From Christensenellaceae bacterium (GTDB taxonomy: Bacteria > Bacillota > Clostridia > Christensenellales > UBA1750), in contig JAITGM010000022.1 of NCBI GenBank assembly GCA_031280685.1, positions 1 through 64,000 on the forward strand: a stretch of DNA of 64,000 nt, given 5' to 3'. The notes beneath the pieces are model-generated. The model was not told where the DNA came from, ran no database searches, and worked only from the letters and a program-made list of their open reading frames with translations. Position 1 is the stretch's first letter; every line of letters starts with the position of its first letter. Below, in pieces: positions 1,388 through 56,614 of the stretch. A program made the position numbers and the translations under genes.

Positions 1388-1423
1388 AAGAAAAAGCAAG
1401 GGACGCCCTCAGGCTCCCTTGCC
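1388..1423 (-). promoter_or_regulatory. Leader attenuator: hexaloop hairpin GGC[AAGGGA]GCC overlapping intrinsic terminator
   Basis: Minus strand GGCAAGGGAGCC; terminator GCAAGGGA-GCC-TGAG-GGC-G-TCCCTTGC-TTTTTCTT uses loop and 3' arm. Confidence 0.55.
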
Positions 1424-1542: not shown

Positions 1543-1571
1543 TTGACAAGTCACCGGCGGGTGCATATTAT
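1543..1571 (+). promoter_or_regulatory. Sigma-A promoter of dehydrogenase/MATE operon
   Basis: TTGACA-17-TATTAT. Confidence 0.75.
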
Positions 1572-1606: not shown

Positions 1607-1682
1607 CGCCAGGGCGGGTGGGCAAAGGTTATCAACGGGGATAAGAAACCGCGGCTTTACGCGGCTCTTATCCCCGTTTTTT
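1607..1682 (+). promoter_or_regulatory. Leader attenuator with two hexaloop hairpins and an intrinsic terminator
   Basis: CGCC[AGGGCG]GGTG, 8-nt linker, TTATC[AACGGG]GATAA; terminator AACGGGGATAAGA...TCTTATCCCCGTT-TTTT overlaps second hairpin. Confidence 0.6.
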
Positions 1683-1717
1683 AGCAAAAATCAGGGGCAT
1701 TGAGAGGATGTAAGGGT

Positions 1718-4272: not shown

Positions 4273-4297
4273 GGTTTCATTCTTCATCATCTCTCGT

Positions 4298-4346
4298 CAA
4301 CAATGGCGTTGCACGGGGCCGCAAGGCCCCTGGCAGCGCCTTTTTG
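4298..4346 (+). promoter_or_regulatory. Intergenic attenuator: CAAC[AATGGC]GTTG overlapping terminator, upstream of dpp operon 1
   Basis: Hexaloop hairpin; terminator GGCGTTGC-ac-GGGGCC-gcaa-GGCCCC-tg-GCAGCGCC-TTTTTG. Confidence 0.55.
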
Positions 4347-4376: not shown

Positions 4377-5291
4377 ATGCTCAAAACCATCCTCAAGCGG
4401 GTTCTCGTCGGCGTGGCGACCATGTTCGTGCTCATCACGGTGACCTTCTTCCTGGTTCGGCTGATGCCGGGCAGCCCCTTCGAGGCCGAAAACGTTTCAG
4501 CCCAGATGATCGCTTCGCTCGAGAAGGAGTACGGCCTTGACCAGCCGCTGCTCAACCAATACCTGCTCTATTTAGAAAAGGTTCTGCACGGCGACCTGGG
4601 GATCTCTTACAAGAAGAACATCTCCGTGGTCACGCTAATCGGCAGGGGCATGCCGGCCACGATGCAAATCGGGCTTTTGGCCTTTTTGCTGGCCGCCGTC
4701 GTGGGCATCGGCCTTGGCATCTGGCAGGCCAGCACCAAGAGCGGCTTCATCCGCGGGCTTCTGGTTTCCTACGCGACGCTGGGCGTCAGCCTGCCGGGCT
4801 TCGTGACCGCTCTTTTGCTCATCGTGGTGTTCGGGGCCTGGCTGCAGGCGCTGCCGGTGGTCGGGCTGACCAGCCCCAAGCATTACATCCTGCCGGTGAT
4901 CGCGCAGGCCTTCGGGCCGATTGCCACGATCTCCAGGCTCGTCAAGAGCAGCTACTCAGAGGCCATGCAGATGGACTACGTAACCATGGCCCGGGCCAAG
5001 GGCCTGCGGCCCTGGCAGATCTCGCTCAAACACATCCTCAAAAACGCGATTCTGCCCGTCATCACCTACTTCGGCCCGGCGATCGCCTTCCTGCTCACGG
5101 GCTCCTTCGTGGTCGAAAGCCTCTTTTCCATCCCCGGCATCGGCAAGGAATTCGTCAGCGCCATCTCAAACCGCGATTACACCTTGGTTTTAGGCCTTTC
5201 CATCTTCATCGGCGGGGTGATCATCGTCGCGAACCTCGTGGTGGATCTGCTCTGCGCGGTCGTGGATCCGCGCATCAAGCTCAACGATTAA
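4377..5291 (+). CDS. Peptide ABC transporter permease (DppB/OppB family)
   Basis: ORF; PGSPF, EYGLDQPL, DYVTMARAKGL EAA loop, VVDLLCAVVDPRIK. Confidence 0.92.
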   Translation: MLKTILKRVLVGVATMFVLITVTFFLVRLMPGSPFEAENVSAQMIASLEKEYGLDQPLLNQYLLYLEKVLHGDLGISYKKNISVVTLIGRGMPATMQIGLLAFLLAAVVGIGLGIWQASTKSGFIRGLLVSYATLGVSLPGFVTALLLIVVFGAWLQALPVVGLTSPKHYILPVIAQAFGPIATISRLVKSSYSEAMQMDYVTMARAKGLRPWQISLKHILKNAILPVITYFGPAIAFLLTGSFVVESLFSIPGIGKEFVSAISNRDYTLVLGLSIFIGGVIIVANLVVDLLCAVVDPRIKLND

Positions 5292-5308
5292 ACAAGGAGG
5301 TGCCCCCA

Positions 5309-6226
5309 ATGGAAACCCCCAAAAAGGGCTTTTGGTTTGAACCCATCGAGCCTGAGCTGCAAAACAGCGAGTTTATCGCCGTTGAGTCCAAGGGCTTTCT
5401 AGCCGAGGCCTCGGCGCGCTTCCTTCGCAACAAGCGCGCGGTGTTTGGCCTGGCCATCCTCGTCTTCTTCGCCGCGTTGGCGCTGTTTGGGCCCTTCCTC
5501 GTGCCCTACAGCTACGATGGGCAGTCCCCCGCCTTCGTCAACGCGCCGCCTTCCGCCGCGCACTGGCTCGGGGCGGATAAGTTCGGCAGGGATCTCTTCG
5601 TCAGGCTCTGCTACGGCGCGAGAATCAGCCTGTTCATCGGCTTTGCCAGCGCGCTGATCAACCTGGTCATCGGCTGCGTGCTGGGCGGCATTTCGGGCTA
5701 CGCGGGCGGCAAGGTCGATCTGATCATCATGCGCGCGGTCGATATCATCTATGCGGTGCCCTCGATGCTCTATGTCATCCTCATCATGATGGCGCTCGGG
5801 GCCAACACCAAGTCCATCCTCATCGGCATCTGCATCCCCGGCTGGATCGGCATGGCCAGGCAGGTGCGTGGGCAGATCATCTCATTGAAGCAGCAGGAAT
5901 TTTCGATGGCCGCGCTGGTGCTCGGCGCGGGCGACGGCCGCATCCTCTTTAAGCATCTGATGATCAACGCGATCGGCCCGATCATCGTGCAGCTAACCTT
6001 CCTGGTGCCGCAGGCGATCTTTACCGAGGCCTTTTTGAGCTTCGTGGGCGTGGGCATCTCGGCGCCGCTGGCCTCCTGGGGCTCGATGTGCCAAAGCGCG
6101 CGGGAGTTCATCACCCTTTACCCCTTGCAGATGCTCTGGCCCACGCTCTCGATCTCGCTGACCATCTTCTCGCTGAACTTCCTGGGCGAGGGCATCGGCG
6201 ACGCGCTGAACCCCCGCAGCAAATAA
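5309..6226 (+). CDS. Peptide ABC transporter permease (DppC/OppC family)
   Basis: ORF; HWLGADKFGRDLFVRLCYGARISL, FLGEGIGDALNPRSK; RBS AAGGAGG before ATG 5309. Confidence 0.92.
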   Translation: METPKKGFWFEPIEPELQNSEFIAVESKGFLAEASARFLRNKRAVFGLAILVFFAALALFGPFLVPYSYDGQSPAFVNAPPSAAHWLGADKFGRDLFVRLCYGARISLFIGFASALINLVIGCVLGGISGYAGGKVDLIIMRAVDIIYAVPSMLYVILIMMALGANTKSILIGICIPGWIGMARQVRGQIISLKQQEFSMAALVLGAGDGRILFKHLMINAIGPIIVQLTFLVPQAIFTEAFLSFVGVGISAPLASWGSMCQSAREFITLYPLQMLWPTLSISLTIFSLNFLGEGIGDALNPRSK

Positions 6227-6245
6227 CGAAAGGAGCGTTCCCTGC

Positions 6246-7340
6246 ATGAGCCTTTTAGAGATCAGGCACCTTAGCACCCACTTCCAGACCGCCCAGGGCA
6301 CGGTGAAGGCCCTTCGCGATGTTTCTTTCAGGGTTTCGCCCGGCGAGGTTTTCGGGCTGGTCGGGGAATCCGGCTCGGGCAAGAGCGTGTCGATGCTCAG
6401 CCTGATGGGCCTGCTGGGGGAAAACAGCGTAATCCCCGAGGGGGAGATCCTCTTTGGCGGCCGCGATATTTCCCCCTCGGAGCTTAACACGAAGAAAAAA
6501 CGCCGCGAGTACGAAAAAAAGATGCGCAAGCTGCGCGGCGGCGAGATCTCGATGATCTTTCAGGACCCGATGACCTTCCTAAACCCCGTTTTGAAGATCG
6601 GCACCCAGATCTGCGAGGGCATTTTAGCCCATATCCACTGCTCGCGGGAGGAAGCGCGGATCCGCGCCATCGAGCTGATGCGCCAGGTGGGCATTCCCAG
6701 CCCCGAAAAGCGGCTGGAGCAGTACCCCTTCGAGTTCTCGGGCGGGATGCGGCAGCGCATCATCATCGCGGCCGCGCTGGCCTGCAAGCCCAAGCTGATC
6801 ATCGCGGATGAACCCACCACCGCCCTTGACGTAACCGTGCAGGCGCAGATCCTGGAGCTGATCCAGACCCTCACCGATGAAAGCGGCGCCGCGGTCATCA
6901 TGATTACCCACGATTTGGGGGTCGTGGCCACGCTTTGCGACCGGATCGCCATCCTCTATGCCGGGCGGGTGATGGAAGAGGGCCTGACGGAAGAGATCTT
7001 CTACAACCCCAAGCACCCCTACACCAGGGGCCTGCTGGGCAGCATCAACAATTCCGAAAAGGATGGCAACGAGCCCTTGCGGCCCATCCCCGGCACGCCG
7101 CCGGACCTGCTGAAGCTGCCCGCGGGCTGCGCCTTCATGCCCAGGTGCCAAGAAGCCCTGCGCATCTGCGCCGCGCAGGAGCCGCCCGAAAGCTCCTTTT
7201 CGGGCACGCATCGCTGCTTCTGCTGGCAAAACTCCATGGATGCTTCGCTCATCACGGTTCCCACGCCGGCCGCGGCGAAAAGGGCCCCAAGCGAAGCCGA
7301 AGCCCAAAATTTGGCGCTGAGCGCCGCTCGGGAGGGATAA
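6246..7340 (+). CDS. Peptide ABC transporter ATP-binding protein (DppD/OppD family)
   Basis: Walker A GESGSGKS, signature FSGGMRQR, Walker B LIIADEPTTALD, oligopeptide C-terminal Cys motif. Confidence 0.94.
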   Translation: MSLLEIRHLSTHFQTAQGTVKALRDVSFRVSPGEVFGLVGESGSGKSVSMLSLMGLLGENSVIPEGEILFGGRDISPSELNTKKKRREYEKKMRKLRGGEISMIFQDPMTFLNPVLKIGTQICEGILAHIHCSREEARIRAIELMRQVGIPSPEKRLEQYPFEFSGGMRQRIIIAAALACKPKLIIADEPTTALDVTVQAQILELIQTLTDESGAAVIMITHDLGVVATLCDRIAILYAGRVMEEGLTEEIFYNPKHPYTRGLLGSINNSEKDGNEPLRPIPGTPPDLLKLPAGCAFMPRCQEALRICAAQEPPESSFSGTHRCFCWQNSMDASLITVPTPAAAKRAPSEAEAQNLALSAAREG

Positions 7341-7344
7341 GTCA

Positions 7345-8391
7345 GTGGCTGAAAAGCTCTTGGAGGTCACCGACCTGTGCAAGTATTTTGAGCTCAAGCG
7401 CGGCCTGAAAGGCACGCAGGTAGTCAAGGCCGTAGACCACGTTTCCTTCGAGATCGCAAAGGGCGAAACCCTGGGCCTTGTGGGCGAGAGCGGCTGCGGC
7501 AAGTCCAGTCTCGGGCGCACGCTGCTGCGCATCTACGAGCCCACGGCGGGCGAGATCCTCTACTGCGGCAAGGATCTGGCCAGGCTCTCGCGCAGGGGGT
7601 TTTTGCCCTACCGCCGCAAAATCCAGATGATCTTTCAGGATCCCTACGCTTCGCTCAACCCGCGCCTGACCGTGGGCGAGATCATCGGCGAAGGCATGCA
7701 GATCCACAAGCTCTGCACGAAGGCCCAGGCCACGCGCCGCGTGCAGGAACTGCTCGAGCTGGTGGGCCTAAAGCCAGACCATATCCGCCGCTACCCGCAT
7801 GAGTTCTCGGGCGGGCAGAGGCAGCGCATCTGCATCGCGCGGACGCTGAGCCTCGACCCTGAGTTCATCGTCTGCGACGAACCGATCTCGGCGCTTGATG
7901 TTTCCATCCAGGCCCAGGTCATCAACCTTTTGGAACTCATCCAGAAGGAGCGCGGCATCAGCTACCTCTTCATCGCGCACGATTTGGGCATGGTCAAGCA
8001 CATTTCACACCGCATCGGGGTGATGTATCTGGGCCACATGGTGGAAACCGGCCCCTCGAACGACGTTTACCACGACCCGCTCCACCCCTACACCCGCGCG
8101 CTGCTCTCGGCGGAGCCGATTCCGGACCCTAGGGCGGCCCACTTAAAGAAGCGCATCCTCTTGGAGGGCGAGATCCCAAGCCCGATCCATCCGCCAAAGG
8201 GCTGCCCCTTCGTCACCCGCTGCCCCTATGCCATGGAGGTCTGCGCGGCCATTCAGCCGCCGAGCTTCGAGCTGGAAAACCGCAAGGTTTCCTGCTTCCT
8301 CTACGAGCAGTGGCGCATCCGCGAGCGCGGGGGCAAAGGCCTGGCCTCCCTTCCCCAAAAAGCCCCCGCCCAACCGCCCGCAAACGCCTAA
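7345..8391 (+). CDS. Peptide ABC transporter ATP-binding protein (DppF/OppF family)
   Basis: GESGCGKSS, FSGGQRQRICIAR, FIVCDEPISALDVS. Confidence 0.94.
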   Translation: MAEKLLEVTDLCKYFELKRGLKGTQVVKAVDHVSFEIAKGETLGLVGESGCGKSSLGRTLLRIYEPTAGEILYCGKDLARLSRRGFLPYRRKIQMIFQDPYASLNPRLTVGEIIGEGMQIHKLCTKAQATRRVQELLELVGLKPDHIRRYPHEFSGGQRQRICIARTLSLDPEFIVCDEPISALDVSIQAQVINLLELIQKERGISYLFIAHDLGMVKHISHRIGVMYLGHMVETGPSNDVYHDPLHPYTRALLSAEPIPDPRAAHLKKRILLEGEIPSPIHPPKGCPFVTRCPYAMEVCAAIQPPSFELENRKVSCFLYEQWRIRERGGKGLASLPQKAPAQPPANA

Positions 8392-8433
8392 AATAGGCGC
8401 GGAGAATAAACACTTACGAGGAGGTTTTCGAAA

Positions 8434-10095
8434 ATGACCCGTTTTGCAAAGCTTTTGAGCGTTTTTTTGATCCTTTCCCTGCTCGCGCTGAGCTTGGCCG
8501 CCTGCGGCGGCGCACAGGCCCCCGAAACAAGCCCGGCAGGCGCTGCCGCCTCCCCCTCGGGCGGAGGCGAAAGGGAGATCACCATACGCATGGAGCCTGA
8601 AACCGGCACCCTGGACCCCGCGGGCAATTCCTCGATCACATACTGGGGCTACGCGGCCTACGCGCTGGCTCCGCTGGTCGAGCTGGCGCCGGACGGCTCC
8701 TACGACTATATCATCGCCGAAAGCTGCGACATCAATGAAGACAATACGGTCTTCACCTTCCACTTCCGCGAGGGCGCGGCCTGGTCCGACGGCAGCCCCT
8801 GCACCCCCGCGGACTACATCAACACCATGAAAAGGGCTCTTGATCCCGCCTGCGGCTCGGGCTATTCCGACTTCCTTTTTAAGGTCAAGAACGGCAAGGC
8901 CATCTATGAGGGCAGCGCCGACCCCGATACCTTAGGCGTTTCCGCGCCGGATGACAAGACCCTGGTCATCACGCTGGAGGAACCCTGCCAGTACTTCCTC
9001 GACCTGCTCTTTCTGCCCGTTTTCTACCCTTCTCATGCCGAAAAGGCCACCGAAACCAACGGCGACTGGTGCTTTGACCCGGCGCGCAGCCTGGCCAACG
9101 GCCCCTTCTACCTGGCCGAGTATGTGCCCGAGCAGTATATCCTGCTAAAGAAGAACCCCTACTACGTGCAGAAGGAGCGCATCAGCCTGGATTCCATCAA
9201 GCTGCTCGCCATCGCGGATACCCAGTCGGCCATCAGCGCGTATAAGACCGGCGAGGTGGACGTGACCAGCGCGGACTACACGGTTCTGGCAGAGTATGAG
9301 GGCGAGGACGATCTGGTCATCCTGCCGAGCATGACGAGCTACTACACCCTGCTCAACTGGGACCGCGAGCCCCTCAGCAACCCGCTGGTGCGCGAGGCGC
9401 TCTCTATCTCAATTGATCGCGACGCGATCGCGGCCTCGGCGGGCAAGGGCAGCTACGAGCCCACGAGTTTCTTCGTCGCCAGGTACATGACCAGCAAGCT
9501 CGGCGGCGGCGAAGGCAAAAAGTGGGGCGAAGAGGTTGACCCCTTGCTGGCGCTGAATATCGAGCGGGCGCAGCAGCTCCTGGCTGAGGCCGGCTACCCG
9601 GGCGGCGAGGGCTTCCCGGAGCTGAGCTTCAAATACCCTGCCATGGAGGTCGAGGCTGCCATCGCGCAGTCGATGCAGGCGCAATGGAAGCAGAACCTGG
9701 GCATCACGGTCAACCTCGAAGCGCAGGAGTACCAGGTCAACATCTCGGACCGCAGGGCCGGCGATTTCGATATTTGCCGCATGCGCTGGACTGCGGACTA
9801 TGCGGATCCGACGACCTTCCTGAGCATGTACACGGCCAGCGCCAGCTATAACGACAGCGGCGTCGCCAGCGCGAAGTACGAGGAGCTTCTGGCCCTTTCC
9901 GAGCGCGAAGGCGAGCCCTCGAAGCGCTTCCAGCTCCTGCACGATACGGAAAAGGTTCTCGTCGCGGAGGAGTTCGCCTTCATCCCGACGCTGGCCGGCA
10001 TTGGCGTGACGCTGCGCAGCCCAAAACTTGGAAATATCGTCATCAACCCCAGCCGCAACACCCCGTTCTATAAATACGCCACCCTCGCGGACTAA
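8434..10095 (+). CDS. Peptide ABC transporter substrate-binding lipoprotein (SBP family 5)
   Basis: Lipobox LSLAACGG; SBP_bac_5-like AWSDGSPCTPADYINTMKRALDP. Confidence 0.92.
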   Translation: MTRFAKLLSVFLILSLLALSLAACGGAQAPETSPAGAAASPSGGGEREITIRMEPETGTLDPAGNSSITYWGYAAYALAPLVELAPDGSYDYIIAESCDINEDNTVFTFHFREGAAWSDGSPCTPADYINTMKRALDPACGSGYSDFLFKVKNGKAIYEGSADPDTLGVSAPDDKTLVITLEEPCQYFLDLLFLPVFYPSHAEKATETNGDWCFDPARSLANGPFYLAEYVPEQYILLKKNPYYVQKERISLDSIKLLAIADTQSAISAYKTGEVDVTSADYTVLAEYEGEDDLVILPSMTSYYTLLNWDREPLSNPLVREALSISIDRDAIAASAGKGSYEPTSFFVARYMTSKLGGGEGKKWGEEVDPLLALNIERAQQLLAEAGYPGGEGFPELSFKYPAMEVEAAIAQSMQAQWKQNLGITVNLEAQEYQVNISDRRAGDFDICRMRWTADYADPTTFLSMYTASASYNDSGVASAKYEELLALSEREGEPSKRFQLLHDTEKVLVAEEFAFIPTLAGIGVTLRSPKLGNIVINPSRNTPFYKYATLAD

Positions 10096-25960: not shown

Positions 25961-25989
25961 TTGACGGAGGGCGGGGTTTGTGCTAATCT
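25961..25989 (+). promoter_or_regulatory. Sigma-A promoter upstream of dpp operon 2
   Basis: TTGACG-17-TAATCT. Confidence 0.6.
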
Positions 25990-25995
25990 GCCCCT

Positions 25996-26040
25996 GTGAC
26001 GATGGGGTCGCGCCGAAAAAGGCGCGACCCCTTTTGTTTT
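25996..26040 (+). promoter_or_regulatory. Leader attenuator: GTGAC[GATGGG]GTCGC overlapping terminator
   Basis: Hexaloop hairpin; terminator GGGGTCGCGCC-GAAAAA-GGCGCGACCCC-TTTTGTTTT. Confidence 0.5.
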
Positions 26041-26095
26041 ACCTTGCCCCATCCCAAGAACACGAAAACTTTACAGGGCGCGAAACAAAAAGAGA

Positions 26096-26123
26096 TTGAC
26101 ATAGCCGCGGGCGTGCATATACT
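26096..26123 (+). promoter_or_regulatory. Second sigma-A promoter of dpp operon 2
   Basis: TTGACA-16-TATACT. Confidence 0.7.
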
Positions 26124-45668: not shown

Positions 45669-46238
45669 CTAAATATACAAATCCAAAATGTCTTGCGCAG
45701 CCTGCCGCTTGGGGATGCGCTGATCCATGGCCTGTTTTTCGATGAAATGGTGGGCCTGCGGCTCGGTCAGGCCGCGCTGCTCGATCAGCAGCCATTTCGC
45801 GCGGTTTACCAGGCGCTGTTCGTCTAAGCGCTCGTACAACCTGCGGTTTTCTTCCCGCAGGGCGGCGATCTTGACGTGCGCGGCCAGCGCAAGGCGCACC
45901 GCCTGCAAAAAGTTTTGCCCGTTGATCGGCTTGCCCAGGGTCAGCACCCCGGAATCGCCCATCGAGGCGGCCGCGCCGTCAAGCTCTTCCTGACGAACGA
46001 GCAAGAGCGAGGCAAGACCCAGAGTAGAAGCCGCAAAAAGGGCGAGCTCCGGGCCGTTTTCTCCGTTTAAAGGAGCGTTGACCACCACGATGGAAAAGGG
46101 CCTGTTCGTGAGCAGCCGCCTGGCCTCGCTGCCGGAGGCCGCGGTTTCGATGGAGGGAAGGCGAATCTCTTCCAGCAGCGAGCGAAGGGCTAGGCGCCCC
46201 TTTTCGCTGGAGGAAATCAGCAAAGCGCCGCCGGTCAA
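45669..46238 (-). CDS. ANTAR domain protein with receiver-like N-terminus
   Basis: C-terminal ANTAR-like [44 protein letters not shown]-terminal receiver-like fold with [12 protein letters not shown]. Confidence 0.88.
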
Positions 46239-46271: not shown

Positions 46272-47546
46272 TCAAATCACGGGGAAGTCGTTTTCGATCT
46301 CGAAGCTCTCGGCGTCGCCCGAGCGGAACATCCTCTCGTACTCGCTGAGCTTGTGCGAAAGGAAGGGCCCCGCAAAGCGCTGGGGCAGGGCTTTTTTAAC
46401 CAGATCCGAGCGCCGCGCCAGGCTCACCGCCTCTTCCAGACTGGCCGGCAGGCTGCCCAGCACCTCGCCCTCAGGCTCAAGCGCAAGCCGCCTTTCGATG
46501 CCCTCGGCCCCAGCCTCGAGCAGCAGCGCAAAGCCGATGTAGGGGTTCATGGCAGGGTCTGGCGAGCGAAGCTCGATGTGGGCGCTCCCGCCGCCCGCCT
46601 GCGGCACGCGCAAGAGCTGCGCCAGGTTCTGGTTCGACCAGGCGATCTCGCCCGGGGCATCAAATCGCCCGAGGCGCGAATACGAACCCGGCAGTGGGTT
46701 TAAGAAGGCGCTGATCTCGGCCACGCGCGAGAGAATGCCCTGCATGAAGGCCTGGGCGACCTCGGTCAGGCCATTTTCGCCCTTGATGACGTTCTCGCCG
46801 TCCTTTTCCAGGGCGATGGAAACGTGCAGGCCGCTGCCACTCTGCTCCTTGAGCGGCTTGGGGAGGAGCGACGCGTAAAGCCCAAAGCTTGAAGCCACGG
46901 TTTTGGCCACGTTCGTGAAGGCGACGTAAGCGTCCGCCATCTTGATCGGGCTTCTGCGGTGCAGGTCGATCTCGTTTTGCCCGGGGCCGGACTCGTGCAG
47001 CGAGGAGGAAGGCCTAATGCCCATCTGCTCAAGATTCAGGCAGATCTCACGGCGGACGTTTTCGCCCTTATCGAGCGGAGCGAAGTCCAGATAGCCGGCC
47101 TGGTCGTGCGGCGCGAGGATGGGCTGGCCCTGATCGCCCAAATTGAAGAGGTAAAACTCGCACTCCAGGGCGATCTTTGCCGTGTAGCCAAGCGCGAAAA
47201 GGCGCTTTACGCTGCTCTTGAGGATGCGCCTGCCGTCGAGTTCGAAGGGCTCGCCGCTGGAATAGAGGATGTCGCAATACACCCTGGCGACCCTGCCGCC
47301 CTGCTGCGGGCGCCAGGGAAGCAGCGCCATGGTTGAAAGATCCGGCATCAAGATGAGGTCGGATCCCTTGGTATCGACAAAGCCAAAGATGCCCGAGGCA
47401 TCGAAGCTCTTGCCGAAGGCCGCCACGTTCTCGAACTCGTCTGCCATGATGGAGATGCTCTTGAGCCTGCCGAACAGATCACAGAAAGCCAGTCGGATGA
47501 ACTTCACGTCGTTTTCGCCCAAAAATGCGCCGGTGTCTTCGGTCAT
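46272..47546 (-). CDS. Glutamine synthetase (glnA-type)
   Basis: FIRLAFCDLFGRLKSISI, DLSTMALLPWRPQQGGRVARVYCDI, LECEFYLF, HESGPGQNEIDLH. Confidence 0.92.
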   Translation of the reverse strand: MTEDTGAFLGENDVKFIRLAFCDLFGRLKSISIMADEFENVAAFGKSFDASGIFGFVDTKGSDLILMPDLSTMALLPWRPQQGGRVARVYCDILYSSGEPFELDGRRILKSSVKRLFALGYTAKIALECEFYLFNLGDQGQPILAPHDQAGYLDFAPLDKGENVRREICLNLEQMGIRPSSSLHESGPGQNEIDLHRRSPIKMADAYVAFTNVAKTVASSFGLYASLLPKPLKEQSGSGLHVSIALEKDGENVIKGENGLTEVAQAFMQGILSRVAEISAFLNPLPGSYSRLGRFDAPGEIAWSNQNLAQLLRVPQAGGGSAHIELRSPDPAMNPYIGFALLLEAGAEGIERRLALEPEGEVLGSLPASLEEAVSLARRSDLVKKALPQRFAGPFLSHKLSEYERMFRSGDAESFEIENDFPVI

Positions 47547-47581
47547 GGCCTATTCCTCCTTCATGGCTCGTAAAATAGAAG

Positions 47582-47613
47582 GCCCCGCGGCGCCTTTGGC
47601 GGAGGAGCGGGGC
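47582..47613 (-). promoter_or_regulatory. Leader hairpin, candidate attenuator of minus-strand glutamine synthetase
   Basis: Minus GCCCCGC-tcctc-CGCC-AAA-GGCG-c-GCGGGGC followed by CTTCTATTTT. Confidence 0.4.
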
Positions 47614-47647
47614 GATGAGCGCTGTGCTTTGGGCCAAGGCCCAGTCT

Positions 47648-47676
47648 ATTTTAAAAGATGCGGCGAAAAGTTGCAA
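47648..47676 (-). promoter_or_regulatory. Sigma-A promoter of minus-strand glutamine synthetase
   Basis: TTGCAA-17-TAAAAT on minus strand. Confidence 0.55.
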
Positions 47677-51420: not shown

Positions 51421-52929
51421 TTATTCGCCCGCGTGCTTAATGCCCAGGATCTCAAGCTCCTTTTCGCTCAGGCCCACGCCGCGGAGCATCAAGCGGTTGC
51501 CGCGCAGGGATTCGATTGCGTTGATGCCCATGCCGCCCATCATTTCCATGATCTCGTGCTCCCAGGCGTGGACGAGGTTGACCAGGCGCTGGTAGCCGAT
51601 ATCGGGATTCAGGCGGCGAACCAGATCGGCCCGCTGGGTGGCGATGCCCCAGTTGCACTTGCCCACCTGGCAGGCACGGCAGAGGTGGCAGCCAAGGGCG
51701 ATGAGCGCGGCCGAAGCGATATACACAGCGTCGGCCCCCAGGGCGATGGCTTTGATCACATCGGCGCTTGATCTGACCGAGCCGCCGATGACCAGGGAGA
51801 TATTGTTGCGAATGCCCTCGTCGCGCAGGCGCTTATCGACGGCGGCCAGCGCAAGCTCGATGGGGATGCCCACGTTATCGCGGATGCGGGTAGGCGCCGC
51901 GCCGGTCCCGCCGCGGAAGCCGTCGATGGCGATAATGTCGGCCCCACTCCTTGCGATGCCGGAGGCGATGGCCGCCACGTTATGCACCGCCGCGATCTTG
52001 ACGATGACCGGCTTTTCGTAGTTCGTGGCCTCTTTTAAGGAGTGCACGAGCTGGTGCAGATCCTCGATGGAATAAATATCGTGGTGCGGCGCCGGGGAAA
52101 TCGCGTCGGTTCCTTCCGGAATCATTCTGGTGCGCGAAACTTCGGCGTTGATCTTTTCGCCGGGGAGATGCCCGCCAATGCCGGGCTTTGCGCCCTGGCC
52201 CATCTTGATTTCGATGGCGGCTGCGGCGTTTAAATACTCGGGGTGCACGCCGAAGCGACCGGAGGCCACCTGCACGATGGTGTTTTTATCGTAGCGGTAA
52301 AAGTCCTGATGCAGGCCGCCTTCGCCGGTGTTATAGAAGGTGCCCAGGGCCTCCGCCGCCCGCGCCAGGGACTCGTGCGCGTTGTAGGAAATGGAGCCGT
52401 AGCTCATGGCCGAAAAGAGGATGGGCACATTGAGCTTGAGCTGCGGGGCCGTCTTGGTGATGATCTTGCCATTGGGGCCGCGCTTGATCTCAACGCTCTT
52501 CTTGCCAAGGAAGGTGACGCCCTCCATCGGCTCGCGCAGCGGGTCGATGGAGGGGTTGGTGACCTGGGAGGCGTTGATGAGGATCTTATCCCAATAGACG
52601 GGGAAATCCTCGGGGTTGCCCATGGAAGAAAGCAGCACGCCGCCGGTCGCTGCCTGGCGGTAGATCTCCTCAATCTTGTTTTGCTGCCAGTTGTGGTTCT
52701 TTTTAAAGGCGTTGGTGGTCGGCTCGATCTTCAGCGCGCGGGTAGGGCAGAGCGAAACGCAACGCTGGCAATTGACGCAGTTATCGTCCTGGCTGACCAT
52801 CATTTTCAGCTCCTGGTCGTAGTGGTGCACCTCGTTGGCGCACTGCTGCTGGCAGGCGCGGCAGCTTATGCAGCGATTTTGGTTGCGGGCGACCTCGTAG
52901 GCAGGGTAGATATAGTGAATGCCTGGCAT
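51421..52929 (-). CDS. Glutamate synthase FMN/central domain protein with N-terminal 4Fe-4S motifs
   Basis: CISCRACQQQC, CVNCQRCVSLCPTRAL, FSAMSYGSISYNAHESLARAA, DGFRGGTGAAPTRIRDNVG. Confidence 0.94.
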   Translation of the reverse strand: MPGIHYIYPAYEVARNQNRCISCRACQQQCANEVHHYDQELKMMVSQDDNCVNCQRCVSLCPTRALKIEPTTNAFKKNHNWQQNKIEEIYRQAATGGVLLSSMGNPEDFPVYWDKILINASQVTNPSIDPLREPMEGVTFLGKKSVEIKRGPNGKIITKTAPQLKLNVPILFSAMSYGSISYNAHESLARAAEALGTFYNTGEGGLHQDFYRYDKNTIVQVASGRFGVHPEYLNAAAAIEIKMGQGAKPGIGGHLPGEKINAEVSRTRMIPEGTDAISPAPHHDIYSIEDLHQLVHSLKEATNYEKPVIVKIAAVHNVAAIASGIARSGADIIAIDGFRGGTGAAPTRIRDNVGIPIELALAAVDKRLRDEGIRNNISLVIGGSVRSSADVIKAIALGADAVYIASAALIALGCHLCRACQVGKCNWGIATQRADLVRRLNPDIGYQRLVNLVHAWEHEIMEMMGGMGINAIESLRGNRLMLRGVGLSEKELEILGIKHAGE

Positions 52930-52932
52930 GAT

Positions 52933-54021
52933 CTAGTTCCCCCTTTGGCCTGTGGTGATGATGACCGGCTCGCCGCCCACCGGCGACCAGATTTTTACGT
53001 CCTCCTCAAGCACGCGGATGGCGCACTCCTCGCTAGAGATGTAGGTGCGGCTCTTTCCCTCGCCCACGACCATGGAACGGAGCTTGAGCCTGTCGTTCAG
53101 GGCCATCAGGCCGCCGCTGAAGCCGTAAAGGATCGAAAACGGCCCGGTGATGAGCAGGCTTGGGAACATCGAGCGCAAATAGGTCAGTTCCTCGCGCTCT
53201 TCCTTCTCCATCAGCTCGATTTTTTCCCAAAAGGGCGCCGCGATGACCTTTGAAGCCTCGGTGAGCGTCAATCCCTGCCGCCTAGTTAAGAAATCGAGGA
53301 TGTAGGTGATGACCTCGGTGTCTGTCAGCAAGGTGCAGGCATAGCCGAACATTTCGATAAAGCGGCGGTTGGCGTCGTAGGACGAAATCTCGCCGTTGTG
53401 AACGATGGTAGAATCGAGCAGGGCAAAGGGGTGCGCGCCGCCCCACCAGCCCGGGGTGTTGGTCGGGTAGCGGCCGTGCGCCGTCCAGACCAGGCCCTCG
53501 TATTCGTCGAGCCTGTAGAATTCGCCCACGTCTTCCGGGTAGCCCACCGCCTTGAACACGCCCATGTTCTTGCCCGATGAAAAGACGTAGGCGCCCTCGA
53601 TCGTGCCGTTGATGGCAAAGGTCGCCCGCACGACGAACTCCTTTTCATCAAGCTGGGAAACGGCGAGCTTATCGGGCCTGGGCTTTGCGAAATAGCGCCA
53701 AATCAGCGGCTCCGAAGTGATGTTCTTGTGCTTTTTGGTAGGGATGACGCCGCTTTCCTGCACCTCGAAATGATCGAGCAGAAACCTTTCGCCGCGAAGC
53801 CTGGCCGCCTCATCGTCAAAGATGAGGTGCAGGGCGTATTCGTCCCTGTGCTTTGGGTAGATGCCGTAGCCCGCAAAGCCGCCGCCCAGGCCGTTCGATC
53901 TGTCGTGCATCGTGGCGATGGAGCGGATCATCTCGCCTCCGCTGATGGGCCTGCCGTCGTGCGAAACGACGCCCGAAATGGCACAGCCCGCAGGGATGCG
54001 CTCTTGCCCCTCTCTGATCAT
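52933..54021 (-). CDS. Glutamate synthase N-terminal class II glutamine amidotransferase domain protein
   Basis: MIREGQERIPAGCAISGVVSHDGRPISGG, HGRYPTNTPGWWGGAHPFALLDSTIVHNGEISSYDANRRF. Confidence 0.9.
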   Translation of the reverse strand: MIREGQERIPAGCAISGVVSHDGRPISGGEMIRSIATMHDRSNGLGGGFAGYGIYPKHRDEYALHLIFDDEAARLRGERFLLDHFEVQESGVIPTKKHKNITSEPLIWRYFAKPRPDKLAVSQLDEKEFVVRATFAINGTIEGAYVFSSGKNMGVFKAVGYPEDVGEFYRLDEYEGLVWTAHGRYPTNTPGWWGGAHPFALLDSTIVHNGEISSYDANRRFIEMFGYACTLLTDTEVITYILDFLTRRQGLTLTEASKVIAAPFWEKIELMEKEEREELTYLRSMFPSLLITGPFSILYGFSGGLMALNDRLKLRSMVVGEGKSRTYISSEECAIRVLEEDVKIWSPVGGEPVIITTGQRGN

Positions 54022-54184
54022 GGAACACCCTCCTTGAGTTGACTTGGGGGAAAGGGCCCGCGCCCTTGCCCGTACCGGGTTGTTTAAAGGAGACGCGGCC
54101 TCGTTTTTTCTTGATTCGGGAATCCGCCGCCGGCGAACTGCCCCGAGAAAGGGGCTTGCCTTGCATTTTGGGCTGTTTGGCCAT

Positions 54185-54230
54185 AAAAAGCGTTTCCGGG
54201 AAGGAAAGAAGGCCGAAAGCCGGAATTCGC
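54185..54230 (-). promoter_or_regulatory. Candidate leader terminator of split GOGAT operon
   Basis: Minus GCGAATTCCGG ... CCGGAAACGC-TTTTT. Confidence 0.4.
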
Positions 54231-54247
54231 GACTGAAACCCAAAAGT

Positions 54248-54276
54248 AGTTTAGGGGCAATCGCGGAACTTGTCAA
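54248..54276 (-). promoter_or_regulatory. Sigma-A promoter of split GOGAT operon
   Basis: TTGACA-17-TAAACT on minus strand. Confidence 0.75.
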
Positions 54277-54308
54277 TGTGTGAGGAAGCGGCTCTCTGTT
54301 ATCTTTCT

Positions 54309-54348
54309 GCAAATCTGCAGGATGGCACCGATCATCCTGCAGATTTGC
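54309..54348. promoter_or_regulatory. 16-bp perfect inverted repeat between divergent promoters
   Basis: GCAAATCTGCAGGATG-gcaccgat-CATCCTGCAGATTTGC. Confidence 0.8.
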
Positions 54349-54382: not shown

Positions 54383-54411
54383 TTGACGTCCCCCTTTCGC
54401 CGGCGTATACT
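54383..54411 (+). promoter_or_regulatory. Sigma-A promoter of glnN
   Basis: TTGACG-17-TATACT. Confidence 0.75.
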
Positions 54412-54420
54412 GCTTTTAAC

Positions 54421-54478
54421 CAGCAAAGACGCTGAAGCATGGCCTTGGTCTGTGCCTTTCAGGTCTTTTTTGTTTTTT
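54421..54478 (+). promoter_or_regulatory. glnN leader attenuator: CAGC[AAAGAC]GCTG overlapping intrinsic terminator
   Basis: Hexaloop A1/G4; terminator AAAGAC-g-CTGAA ... TTCAGGTCTTT-TTTGTTTTTT. Confidence 0.65.
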
Positions 54479-54520
54479 CTAAGGTCAACGATGAAAATTT
54501 CGAGTTTGGAGGAAGGTCAA

Positions 54521-56614
54521 ATGACGAAAGTCCCCGAGTTGTTCGGCAGCCTGGTCTTCGATGAATCGACGATGCGCGAGCTACTGCCCAAGGATGCCTA
54601 TAGGGCTCTGAAGGCCGCGATCGCCCAAAGCAAACCCCTCACCCCCGATGTAGCGAACGTAGTCGCCGCCGCGATGAAGAGCTGGGCCCTTGAAAAGGGC
54701 GCGACCCACTTCACCCACTGGTTCCAGCCGATGACCGGCATCACCGCCGAAAAGCACGATTCCTTCATCTCCCCCACGGGCGATGGCCGCGTCATCATGG
54801 AGTTTTCGGGCAAGGAACTCATCAAGGGCGAGCCCGACGCCTCCTCCTTCCCCTCGGGCGGCCTGCGCGCCACCTTCGAGGCCCGCGGCTACACCGCCTG
54901 GGATCCTTCCTCCTTTGCCTTCATCAAGGATAACACGCTCTGCATCCCCACAGCGTTCTGCTCCTATTCGGGCGAGGCGCTCGATAAGAAGACCCCCCTC
55001 CTGCGCTCGATGGAGGCGGTTTCCAGGCAGGCCGTGCGCGTCTTGCACCTACTGGGCAAGACCCAGGTTAAAAACGTCAAGTCCACCGTTGGCGCCGAGC
55101 AGGAATACTTCCTGATCGACAAGGAAGTCTACCTCAAGCGCAAGGATCTCATCTACACCGGCCGCACGCTCTTCGGCGCGGAGCCGCCCAAGGGCCAGCA
55201 GCTCGAAGACCACTACTTCGGCGCGATCAAACCCCGCGTGGCCGCCTTCATGCAGGAGCTGGACGAGGAGCTTTGGAAGCTCGGCGTGCCCTCGAAGACC
55301 CGCCATAACGAGGTCGCCCCGGCCCAGCACGAGATGGCCCCGGTCTTTAACACCACCAACGTCGCCACAGACCAAAATCAGCTCGCTATGGAGCTGATGA
55401 AAAAGGTCGCGGCACGCCACGGTATGGTCTGCCTCCTGCACGAAAAGCCCTTCGCGGGCGTCAACGGCTCGGGCAAGCACAACAACTGGTCCCTTTCGAC
55501 CGACAGCGGCGAAAACCTCCTCGATCCGGGCTCTACCCCCTATGAAAACGCTCAATTCCTGCTCTTTTTGGCAGCGGTGATCAAGGCCGTGGATGACCAC
55601 CAGGATCTTTTGCGCGTTTCCGTCGCCTCGGCCGGCAACGACCACCGCCTGGGCGCCAACGAAGCGCCGCCCGCCATCGTGTCGATGTTCCTGGGCGACG
55701 AGCTCACCGGCATTCTCGAAGCCATCGAGCAGGGCTCGGGCTACAACTCGAAGGCCTCCTCAGAAATCGCCATCGGCGCCGATGTGCTGCCCACCTTCCC
55801 GCGCGACAACACCGACCGCAACCGCACTTCGCCCTTTGCCTTCACCGGCAACAAGTTCGAGTTCCGCATGCTGGGCTCCTCGTTCTCGGTGGCGGACTCC
55901 AACACCGTGCTCAACACCATCGTGGCCGAGGCGCTTTCGCTCTTTGCGGCCGATCTTGAAAAGGCTTCCGACATCAACGCGGCCATCGCGGACATTGTGG
56001 CCCGCACGATGAAGGAGCATAAGCGCATCATTTTCAACGGCAATAACTACGCGGCCGAATGGGTTGTGGAGGCAGAAAAGCGCGGCCTGCTCAACCTGCG
56101 CTCCACGCCCGAAGCCCTCAAGCGCTTCGCGACCGAGCAAAACGCCAAGCTGTTCGAAAAGCATGGCGTGCTCAGCCGCACGGAGCTGCACTCCAGGCAG
56201 GAAATCTTCTTCGAAGGCTATTCGAAGATCATCGCCATCGAGGCTAGCTGCCTGGTTTCCATCACCCGCAAGCGCTTGCTGCCCGCAGTTCTTGAGTATT
56301 CCAAGGAGCTGGCGGCCACCGCCTTGGCCAAAAAGCAGCTCTCGCAAGCCATCGACACCGGCGTAGAGGAAAGGCAGGTCACCAAGCTTTCGGCCCTGGC
56401 CACCAAGCTGGACGAGAAGCTGAACCAGCTCATCACCGCCATTGCAGACAGCGAAAAGCTCAGCGACGGCGCCGAGCTTGCGGACTTTTCGCACGATAAG
56501 GTCTTTGCCTCGATGGAGGCTCTCCGCATCGTGATCGACGAGGTCGAGCTGATCGTGGCCAAGAAATATTGGCCGGTGCCCACCTACGGCGATCTGCTTT
56601 TCAGCGTGCAGTAA
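54521..56614 (+). CDS. glnN: Glutamine synthetase type III
   Basis: About 697 aa; [68 protein letters not shown]. Confidence 0.95.

Follow-up and report, generated by a model that had tools for sequence, protein, structure and literature searches.

A glnA-linked ANTAR protein with a pseudo-receiver and predicted single-hexaloop antiterminator leaders of nitrogen genes in Clostridia

ANTAR domains bind RNA hairpins whose six-base loop has A at position 1 and G at position 4 (A1/G4 hexaloops; PMC8934654). In the eut system, which uses two such hairpins, P1 and P2, the P1 hairpin is required (PMC8934654, PMC3369931). Both genome-wide searches for ANTAR RNAs demanded two stem-loops and a linker (PMC3369931, PMC8164766), so that leaders with a single hexaloop would be missed. 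The structure of EutV with RNA (NAR 2022, PMC8934654) reduced the minimal ANTAR motif to one hexaloop, a definition whose use needs bioinformatic work, still assigned P1 an essential recruiting role in antitermination, and left the function of single hexaloops open. In the account that PMC6316151 gives of Stutz 2007, NitR, an ANTAR protein of C. saccharobutylicum, induces glutamine synthetase/glutamate synthase (GS/GOGAT) genes by antitermination on nitrogen limitation. The leaders reported here from Clostridia provide a natural test of what a single hexaloop can do.

We analyzed a 64-kb window, the whole stretch of 64,000 nucleotides taken from contig JAITGM010000022.1 of a Christensenellaceae bacterium. 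Its 189-aa open reading frame with a TTG start at 45669-46238 is the sole ANTAR gene of the source genome (2.24 Mb). As the first-pass annotation had it, the gene lies on the minus strand between a glutamine synthetase gene and pyrG, with glnA 33 bp upstream and pyrG directly after. It closes an operon of split glutamate synthase, purA, glnA, and ANTAR genes, which makes it part of the GS/GOGAT cluster with glnA as its immediate upstream neighbor, and a type III glutamine synthetase gene (GSIII, 54521) is divergent from this operon. Of 76 relatives in Clostridia, 73 likewise have glnA immediately ahead of the ANTAR gene. The features of the locus are as follows.

45669-46238, minus strand: ANTAR protein with a pseudo-receiver (Asn for the acceptor Asp), a long coiled-coil helix, and an ANTAR domain (Pfam, AF2, Foldseek, conservation)
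46272-47546, minus strand: type I glutamine synthetase gene glnA, which immediately precedes the ANTAR gene (Pfam Gln-synt_C, 6e-75)
51421-52929 (FMN domain) and 52933-54312 (GATase), same operon as glnA-ANTAR: split glutamate synthase pieces, together with FeS, GltD-like, and GXGXG pieces

The C-terminal ANTAR domain of this protein matches PF03861 with 60.6 bits (E 1.2e-16; Pfam cut-off, 27.3), and the receiver match is weak (Response_reg, 22.1 bits, below the cut-off of 30.2). The AF2 model has a mean pLDDT of 94.9, with the receiver fold above 90, and its nearest folds by Foldseek are EutV (TM 0.80, 6ww6), Rv1626, and AmiR (TM 0.72). At the acceptor position we found Asn where Asp is usual, Ser in the segment LISSSEKG at the site of the acidic pocket, and R in place of the receiver Thr/Ser; the switch Lys is retained (GKP). 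Across 79 relatives in Clostridia the acceptor residue is N in 69, D in 5, S in 4, and Q in 1, the pocket Ser is present in 71, and the switch Lys is present in 64. Because the acceptor and pocket changes are common to relatives, they are no sequencing slip. The protein lacks the acceptor Asp and acidic pocket of a two-component response regulator and has the receiver fold without a phosphorylation site that typifies AmiR. The first-pass annotation had described a receiver without phosphoacceptor and a protein of the phosphorylation-independent type, and had named an alignment with a conserved Asp as a refutation; the alignment bears the description out, as no conserved Asp emerged and the great majority of relatives have other residues at both the acceptor and the acidic pocket. 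Judged from the alignment, loss of the phosphoacceptor is an old, conserved trait of the glnA-linked ANTAR subfamily.

In the genus genomes G000 and G001, the leader of the gltB-glnA-ANTAR operon (54000-54276, minus strand) contains no hexaloop. A hexaloop element sits before the gltB operon in many relatives within the order, so autoregulation of the operon seems, on leader sequence, to have been lost in this genus. We also observed, at window positions 47545-47676 (minus strand), a separate promoter of glnA, TTGCAA-17-TAAAAT, and a hairpin in its leader, where a weak terminator-like stem carries CAAAGGCG in its loop. The hairpin does not have the geometry of a standard hexaloop and is perhaps a decayed hexaloop copy.

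An alignment of 27 leaders contains two mutually exclusive helices, a hexaloop hairpin and a terminator. Hairpin pair 7-20 is C-G in 11, G-C in 10, and A-U in 6 of these leaders. The terminator takes in the loop and the 3' arm of the hairpin, and that arm covaries with the distant terminator arm. The seed leaders were chosen partly by pairing, which biases seed covariation on its own, and we therefore ran two less biased tests. In a loop-class test, all hexaloop hairpins overlapped by a strong terminator were sorted by the bases at loop positions 1 and 4; A1/G4 comprised 25 sites in the first loci from relatives, versus 0 to 4 for each of the 15 other classes. In 1.23 Mb of loci fetched by the ANTAR protein rather than by the motif, it comprised 74 sites, versus 0 to 6 per other class. 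A covariance model that included the terminator structure (R1) was unspecific, drawing in ordinary terminators, and was replaced by R2, from which the terminator helix was left out. Among R2 matches this helix is paired in 90% of cells, with strong covariation. The motif carries the A1/G4 hexaloop of an ANTAR antiterminator RNA in a hairpin that overlaps and excludes an intrinsic terminator, and, on the refuting conditions named at first pass, it is enriched and covaries.

The architecture of these leaders is compact. Those of GSIII genes in relatives consist of a TTGACA-17-TATAAT promoter, ∼15 nt, a 4- to 8-bp hairpin with the loop AA[A/T/G]GRC, and an overlapping terminator. Among 182 distinct leaders, 140 have a promoter matching at least 10 of 12 positions (0 to 3 at control offsets). 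Placing +1 at the seventh base past the -10 box, we found that the hexaloop stem begins at +1 to +7 of the transcript, whose start is predicted from sequence, in 123 of the 140 promoter-bearing leaders. Since the stem stands directly behind the promoter, most leaders have no room for P1. A P1 hexaloop lies 50 nt or less upstream at 1 of 74 sites, and the classical dual arrangement, with P1 within 2 to 25 nt, is not the one found. The A1/G4 loop and the terminator envisaged by the first-pass annotation stood, but in place of the EutV/NasR dual hairpin the leaders have mostly one hexaloop at the 5' end of the transcript, an arrangement that the annotation had not noted. Two hexaloop-terminator units in tandem precede GSIII at two loci (G006/L268, 4327-4458; G063/L161, 2082-2223), which could be a natural two-site version of the switch.

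The genes behind the motif include GSIII, GOGAT, glnA, pyrG, and oppB. Pfam matches add GMP synthase (guaA), PurF (two), adenylosuccinate lyase (purB), glutamate dehydrogenase (two), ammonium transporters (four, two of them fused to P-II), acetamidase/formamidase, an isochorismatase-fold protein, and DAP epimerase. In several genomes from a single family of the order (L115, L168, L173, L178, and L191), the motif closely follows the ANTAR gene, so that pyrG (CTP synthase) has a hexaloop leader to itself. Genome-wide figures come from model searches whose first pass scores a limited number of candidates. On that basis, the motif occurs in 56 of 297 genomes of the order, of which 54 encode ANTAR (127/297 overall), and in 110 of 395 genomes of the class, of which 107 do (220/395 overall; Fisher p 7e-30, with kinship of genomes not corrected for). 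The motif co-occurs with ANTAR in both sets. Two ANTAR-less motif genomes of the order are likely false positives, with no promoter and no nitrogen gene and, in G188, no G4; this inspection covered the two order genomes, G310 and G467 being two further cases in the class.

In the source genome, R2 matched two sites, 54415, which was a seed, and a non-seed site at 4292, which lies upstream of oppB. They correspond to two of the five hexaloop/terminator leaders named at first pass, those at 54421 and 4298, which are well supported.

54383-54411, plus strand: sigma-70 promoter of the GSIII leader, TTGACG-17-TATACT, position conserved in relatives
54421-54434, plus strand: single hexaloop hairpin CAGC-AAAGAC-GCTG, A1 at 54425 and G4 at 54428 (R2, 39.1 bits, E 1.3e-7)
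54425-54479, plus strand: intrinsic terminator and U tract overlapping the GSIII hexaloop (terminator scan, fold, covariation)
54521-56614, plus strand: type III glutamine synthetase, predicted target (Pfam GSIII_N, 1e-82)
4298-4311, plus strand: single hexaloop hairpin CAAC-AATGGC-GTTG before oppB (R2, 30.6 bits)
4302-4346, plus strand: terminator and U tract overlapping the oppB hexaloop (sequence, fold)
4377-10095, plus strand: peptide ABC transporter operon (permeases, ATPases, binding protein), predicted target (Pfam BPD_transp_1, SBP_bac_5)

Leaders orthologous to 54421 are present in the family and order. The 4298 hairpin is kept as CAAC-AAAGGC-GTTG in a same-genus sister species (G001, L138); no promoter lies just upstream of it, which makes it a putative internal attenuator.

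The remaining three leaders fared less well. With the dual-hexaloop scan as the main test, the window yielded one site, the likely leader at 1607, and we dropped the dual model as a general rule for that reason. It has P1 and P2 hexaloops and a strong overlapping terminator, and it scores just 4 bits with the single-hexaloop model R2. The sole comparable dual hexaloop with an overlapping terminator across both strands of 3.9 Mb of additional sequence is at L216 3323-3360, from which ∼0.03 would be expected by count in the window. That site precedes a glutamate synthase gene in a MAG labelled Spirochaetales. The leader at 1388 is only possible: A1 and G4 are present and its promoter has the family spacing, and the stem is 3 bp and the R2 score 5 bits. 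A search of the family for orthologs of the two downstream genes, an aminotransferase (1388) and a 2-hydroxyacid dehydrogenase (1607), returned none close enough.

1543-1571, plus strand: promoter of the 1607 leader, TTGACA-17-TATTAT
1607-1644, plus strand: likely dual hexaloop, P1 CGCC-AGGGCG-GGTG (1607-1620) and P2 TTATC-AACGGG-GATAA (1629-1644)
1635-1686, plus strand: strong terminator overlapping P2, upstream of the 2-hydroxyacid dehydrogenase gene at 1718-2725 (fold)
1412-1423, minus strand: possible hexaloop GGC-AAGGGA-GCC of the 1388 leader, before the aminotransferase gene at 170-1399 (promoter, 1462-1434)

The leader at 25996 failed as an ANTAR target, since its 5-bp stem carries the loop GATGGG, which starts with G instead of A1, and R2 has no match on that hairpin. 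At 25964-26045 (plus strand), a strong hairpin and U tract stand immediately behind a promoter-like TTGACG-17-TAATCT, an arrangement that represents a short transcript or else an attenuator that has decayed; the binding-protein gene has another strong promoter ahead of it, at 26096. A T-box-like sequence (AAGTGGTACCGCG plus terminator) was observed upstream of aminotransferase homologs elsewhere (L285 ∼1388 and L288 ∼1380; G000 contig C17). The proposed five-leader antitermination regulon survives in principle, as a nitrogen/peptide regulon, with just two R2 sites genome-wide.

We consider it probable, at roughly 0.8, that the glnA-linked ANTAR protein antiterminates nitrogen genes without phosphorylation, acting through a 5' single hexaloop. 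RNA polymerase would leave a strong promoter, and the first 15 to 20 nt would fold into one A1/G4 hexaloop hairpin; ∼28 nt later, a much stronger terminator would recapture the 3' half of the loop and the 3' arm of the hairpin. An ANTAR dimer bound to the hexaloop would keep the terminator from forming, and the gene would be read. We infer that the protein binds the 5' hairpin, and likewise infer the readthrough and the dimer state. Glutamine synthetase is the leading candidate partner, based on the adjacency of glnA. We would guess, from this near-invariant gene order and by analogy with the control of AmiR by AmiC, that GlnA or glutamine acts on the pseudo-receiver. Running counter to the nitrogen-antiterminator reading are the lack of a strong R2 match in 113 of the 220 ANTAR-bearing class genomes, which may hold other ANTAR types or diverged motifs, the hexaloop-less leader of the ANTAR gene's own operon, and the need for P1 in eut, given which a P1-less antiterminator must differ in kinetics.

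The requirement for P1 in eut (PMC8934654) is one ground for supposing that a dual hexaloop remains the functional RNA, either because transcription starts further upstream or because a second hexaloop acts in trans or in tandem; the tandem units at L268 and L161 and the dual site at 1607 point the same way. However, near-perfect promoters in 140 of 182 leaders, stems at +1 to +7 in 123, and a P1 candidate at 1 of 74 sites make this unlikely. Palindromic arms near the transcription start of nitrogen-gene promoters could also suggest that a DNA-binding nitrogen repressor uses the inverted repeat at about +1 to +16 as its operator, with an incidental terminator. Yet the arms vary and compensate, G-U included (44 of 124 at one pair), the loop keeps to AA[A/T/G]GRC, covariation extends from the 3' arm to the distant terminator arm, and the motif co-occurs with ANTAR; given the G-U pairs and the triple covariation, we rejected this interpretation as extremely improbable.

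ANTAR binding of the leaders is itself a prediction, and an Rfam scan of the window matched no family, which would suit attenuators sensed by a non-ANTAR factor such as another RNA-binding protein or a riboswitch-like ligand. We give such a sensor very little credence, as the A1/G4 hexaloop is invariant and is what ANTAR domains recognize (PMC8934654), and ANTAR is encoded in 107 of 110 motif genomes. It is about as improbable that the ANTAR protein is still controlled by phosphorylation, at another residue or by a kinase that tolerates Asn: the switch Lys (64/79) and the occasional Asp (5/79) would permit it, but acceptor and acidic pocket are both replaced in the large majority of relatives.

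If single-hexaloop antitermination by the glnA-linked protein is borne out, one RNA-binding protein may govern nitrogen control (GS, GOGAT, GDH, Amt, PurF, GuaA, and PyrG) in many Clostridia without phosphorylation. A broader proposal, which we hold only tentatively and would sooner doubt than accept, is that P1-less ANTAR antiterminators operate Clostridia-wide, a phosphorylation-independent, GS-coupled dimer beating the terminator, in a glutamine-wide regulon whose sensor would be GS itself. The current model could then do without its recruitment hairpin. More than 100 natural candidate single-hexaloop antiterminators with defined promoters, some in cultured Clostridia, make it directly testable whether single hexaloops work as ANTAR targets.

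Leaders with a hexaloop at GSIII, gltB, and glnA in relatives predict GS/GOGAT antitermination there. The NitR gene itself is presumably also directly downstream of glnA in a GS/GOGAT cluster. NitR is, like the window system, an ANTAR protein tied to GS/GOGAT; what is documented here across Clostridia is the breadth of the regulon, the loss of Asp, and the 5'-end single hexaloop. EutV/EutW of Enterococcus faecalis shares the receiver-ANTAR architecture, the A1/G4 hexaloop, and the hairpin overlapping a terminator, but EutV has an active Asp54, needs phosphorylation, and targets P1 plus P2, whereas here Asp is lost and P1 absent. AmiR of Pseudomonas aeruginosa is likewise an ANTAR protein with a non-phosphorylated pseudo-receiver and is ruled by a partner protein (PMC3369936); the partner here would be GlnA, judging by gene adjacency, in place of the amide-binding AmiC. 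Dual stem-loop ANTAR RNAs (PLoS Genet 2012; actinobacteria 2021) have the A1/G4 hexaloop and nitrogen genes, as do the present leaders. Single sites had been expected in settings free of the time limit that transcription imposes (PMC8934654), whereas those found here look like transcription antiterminators. The published transcriptional ANTAR targets consulted carry P1 and P2, and by their predicted structure the Clostridia leaders are a new single-hexaloop variant.
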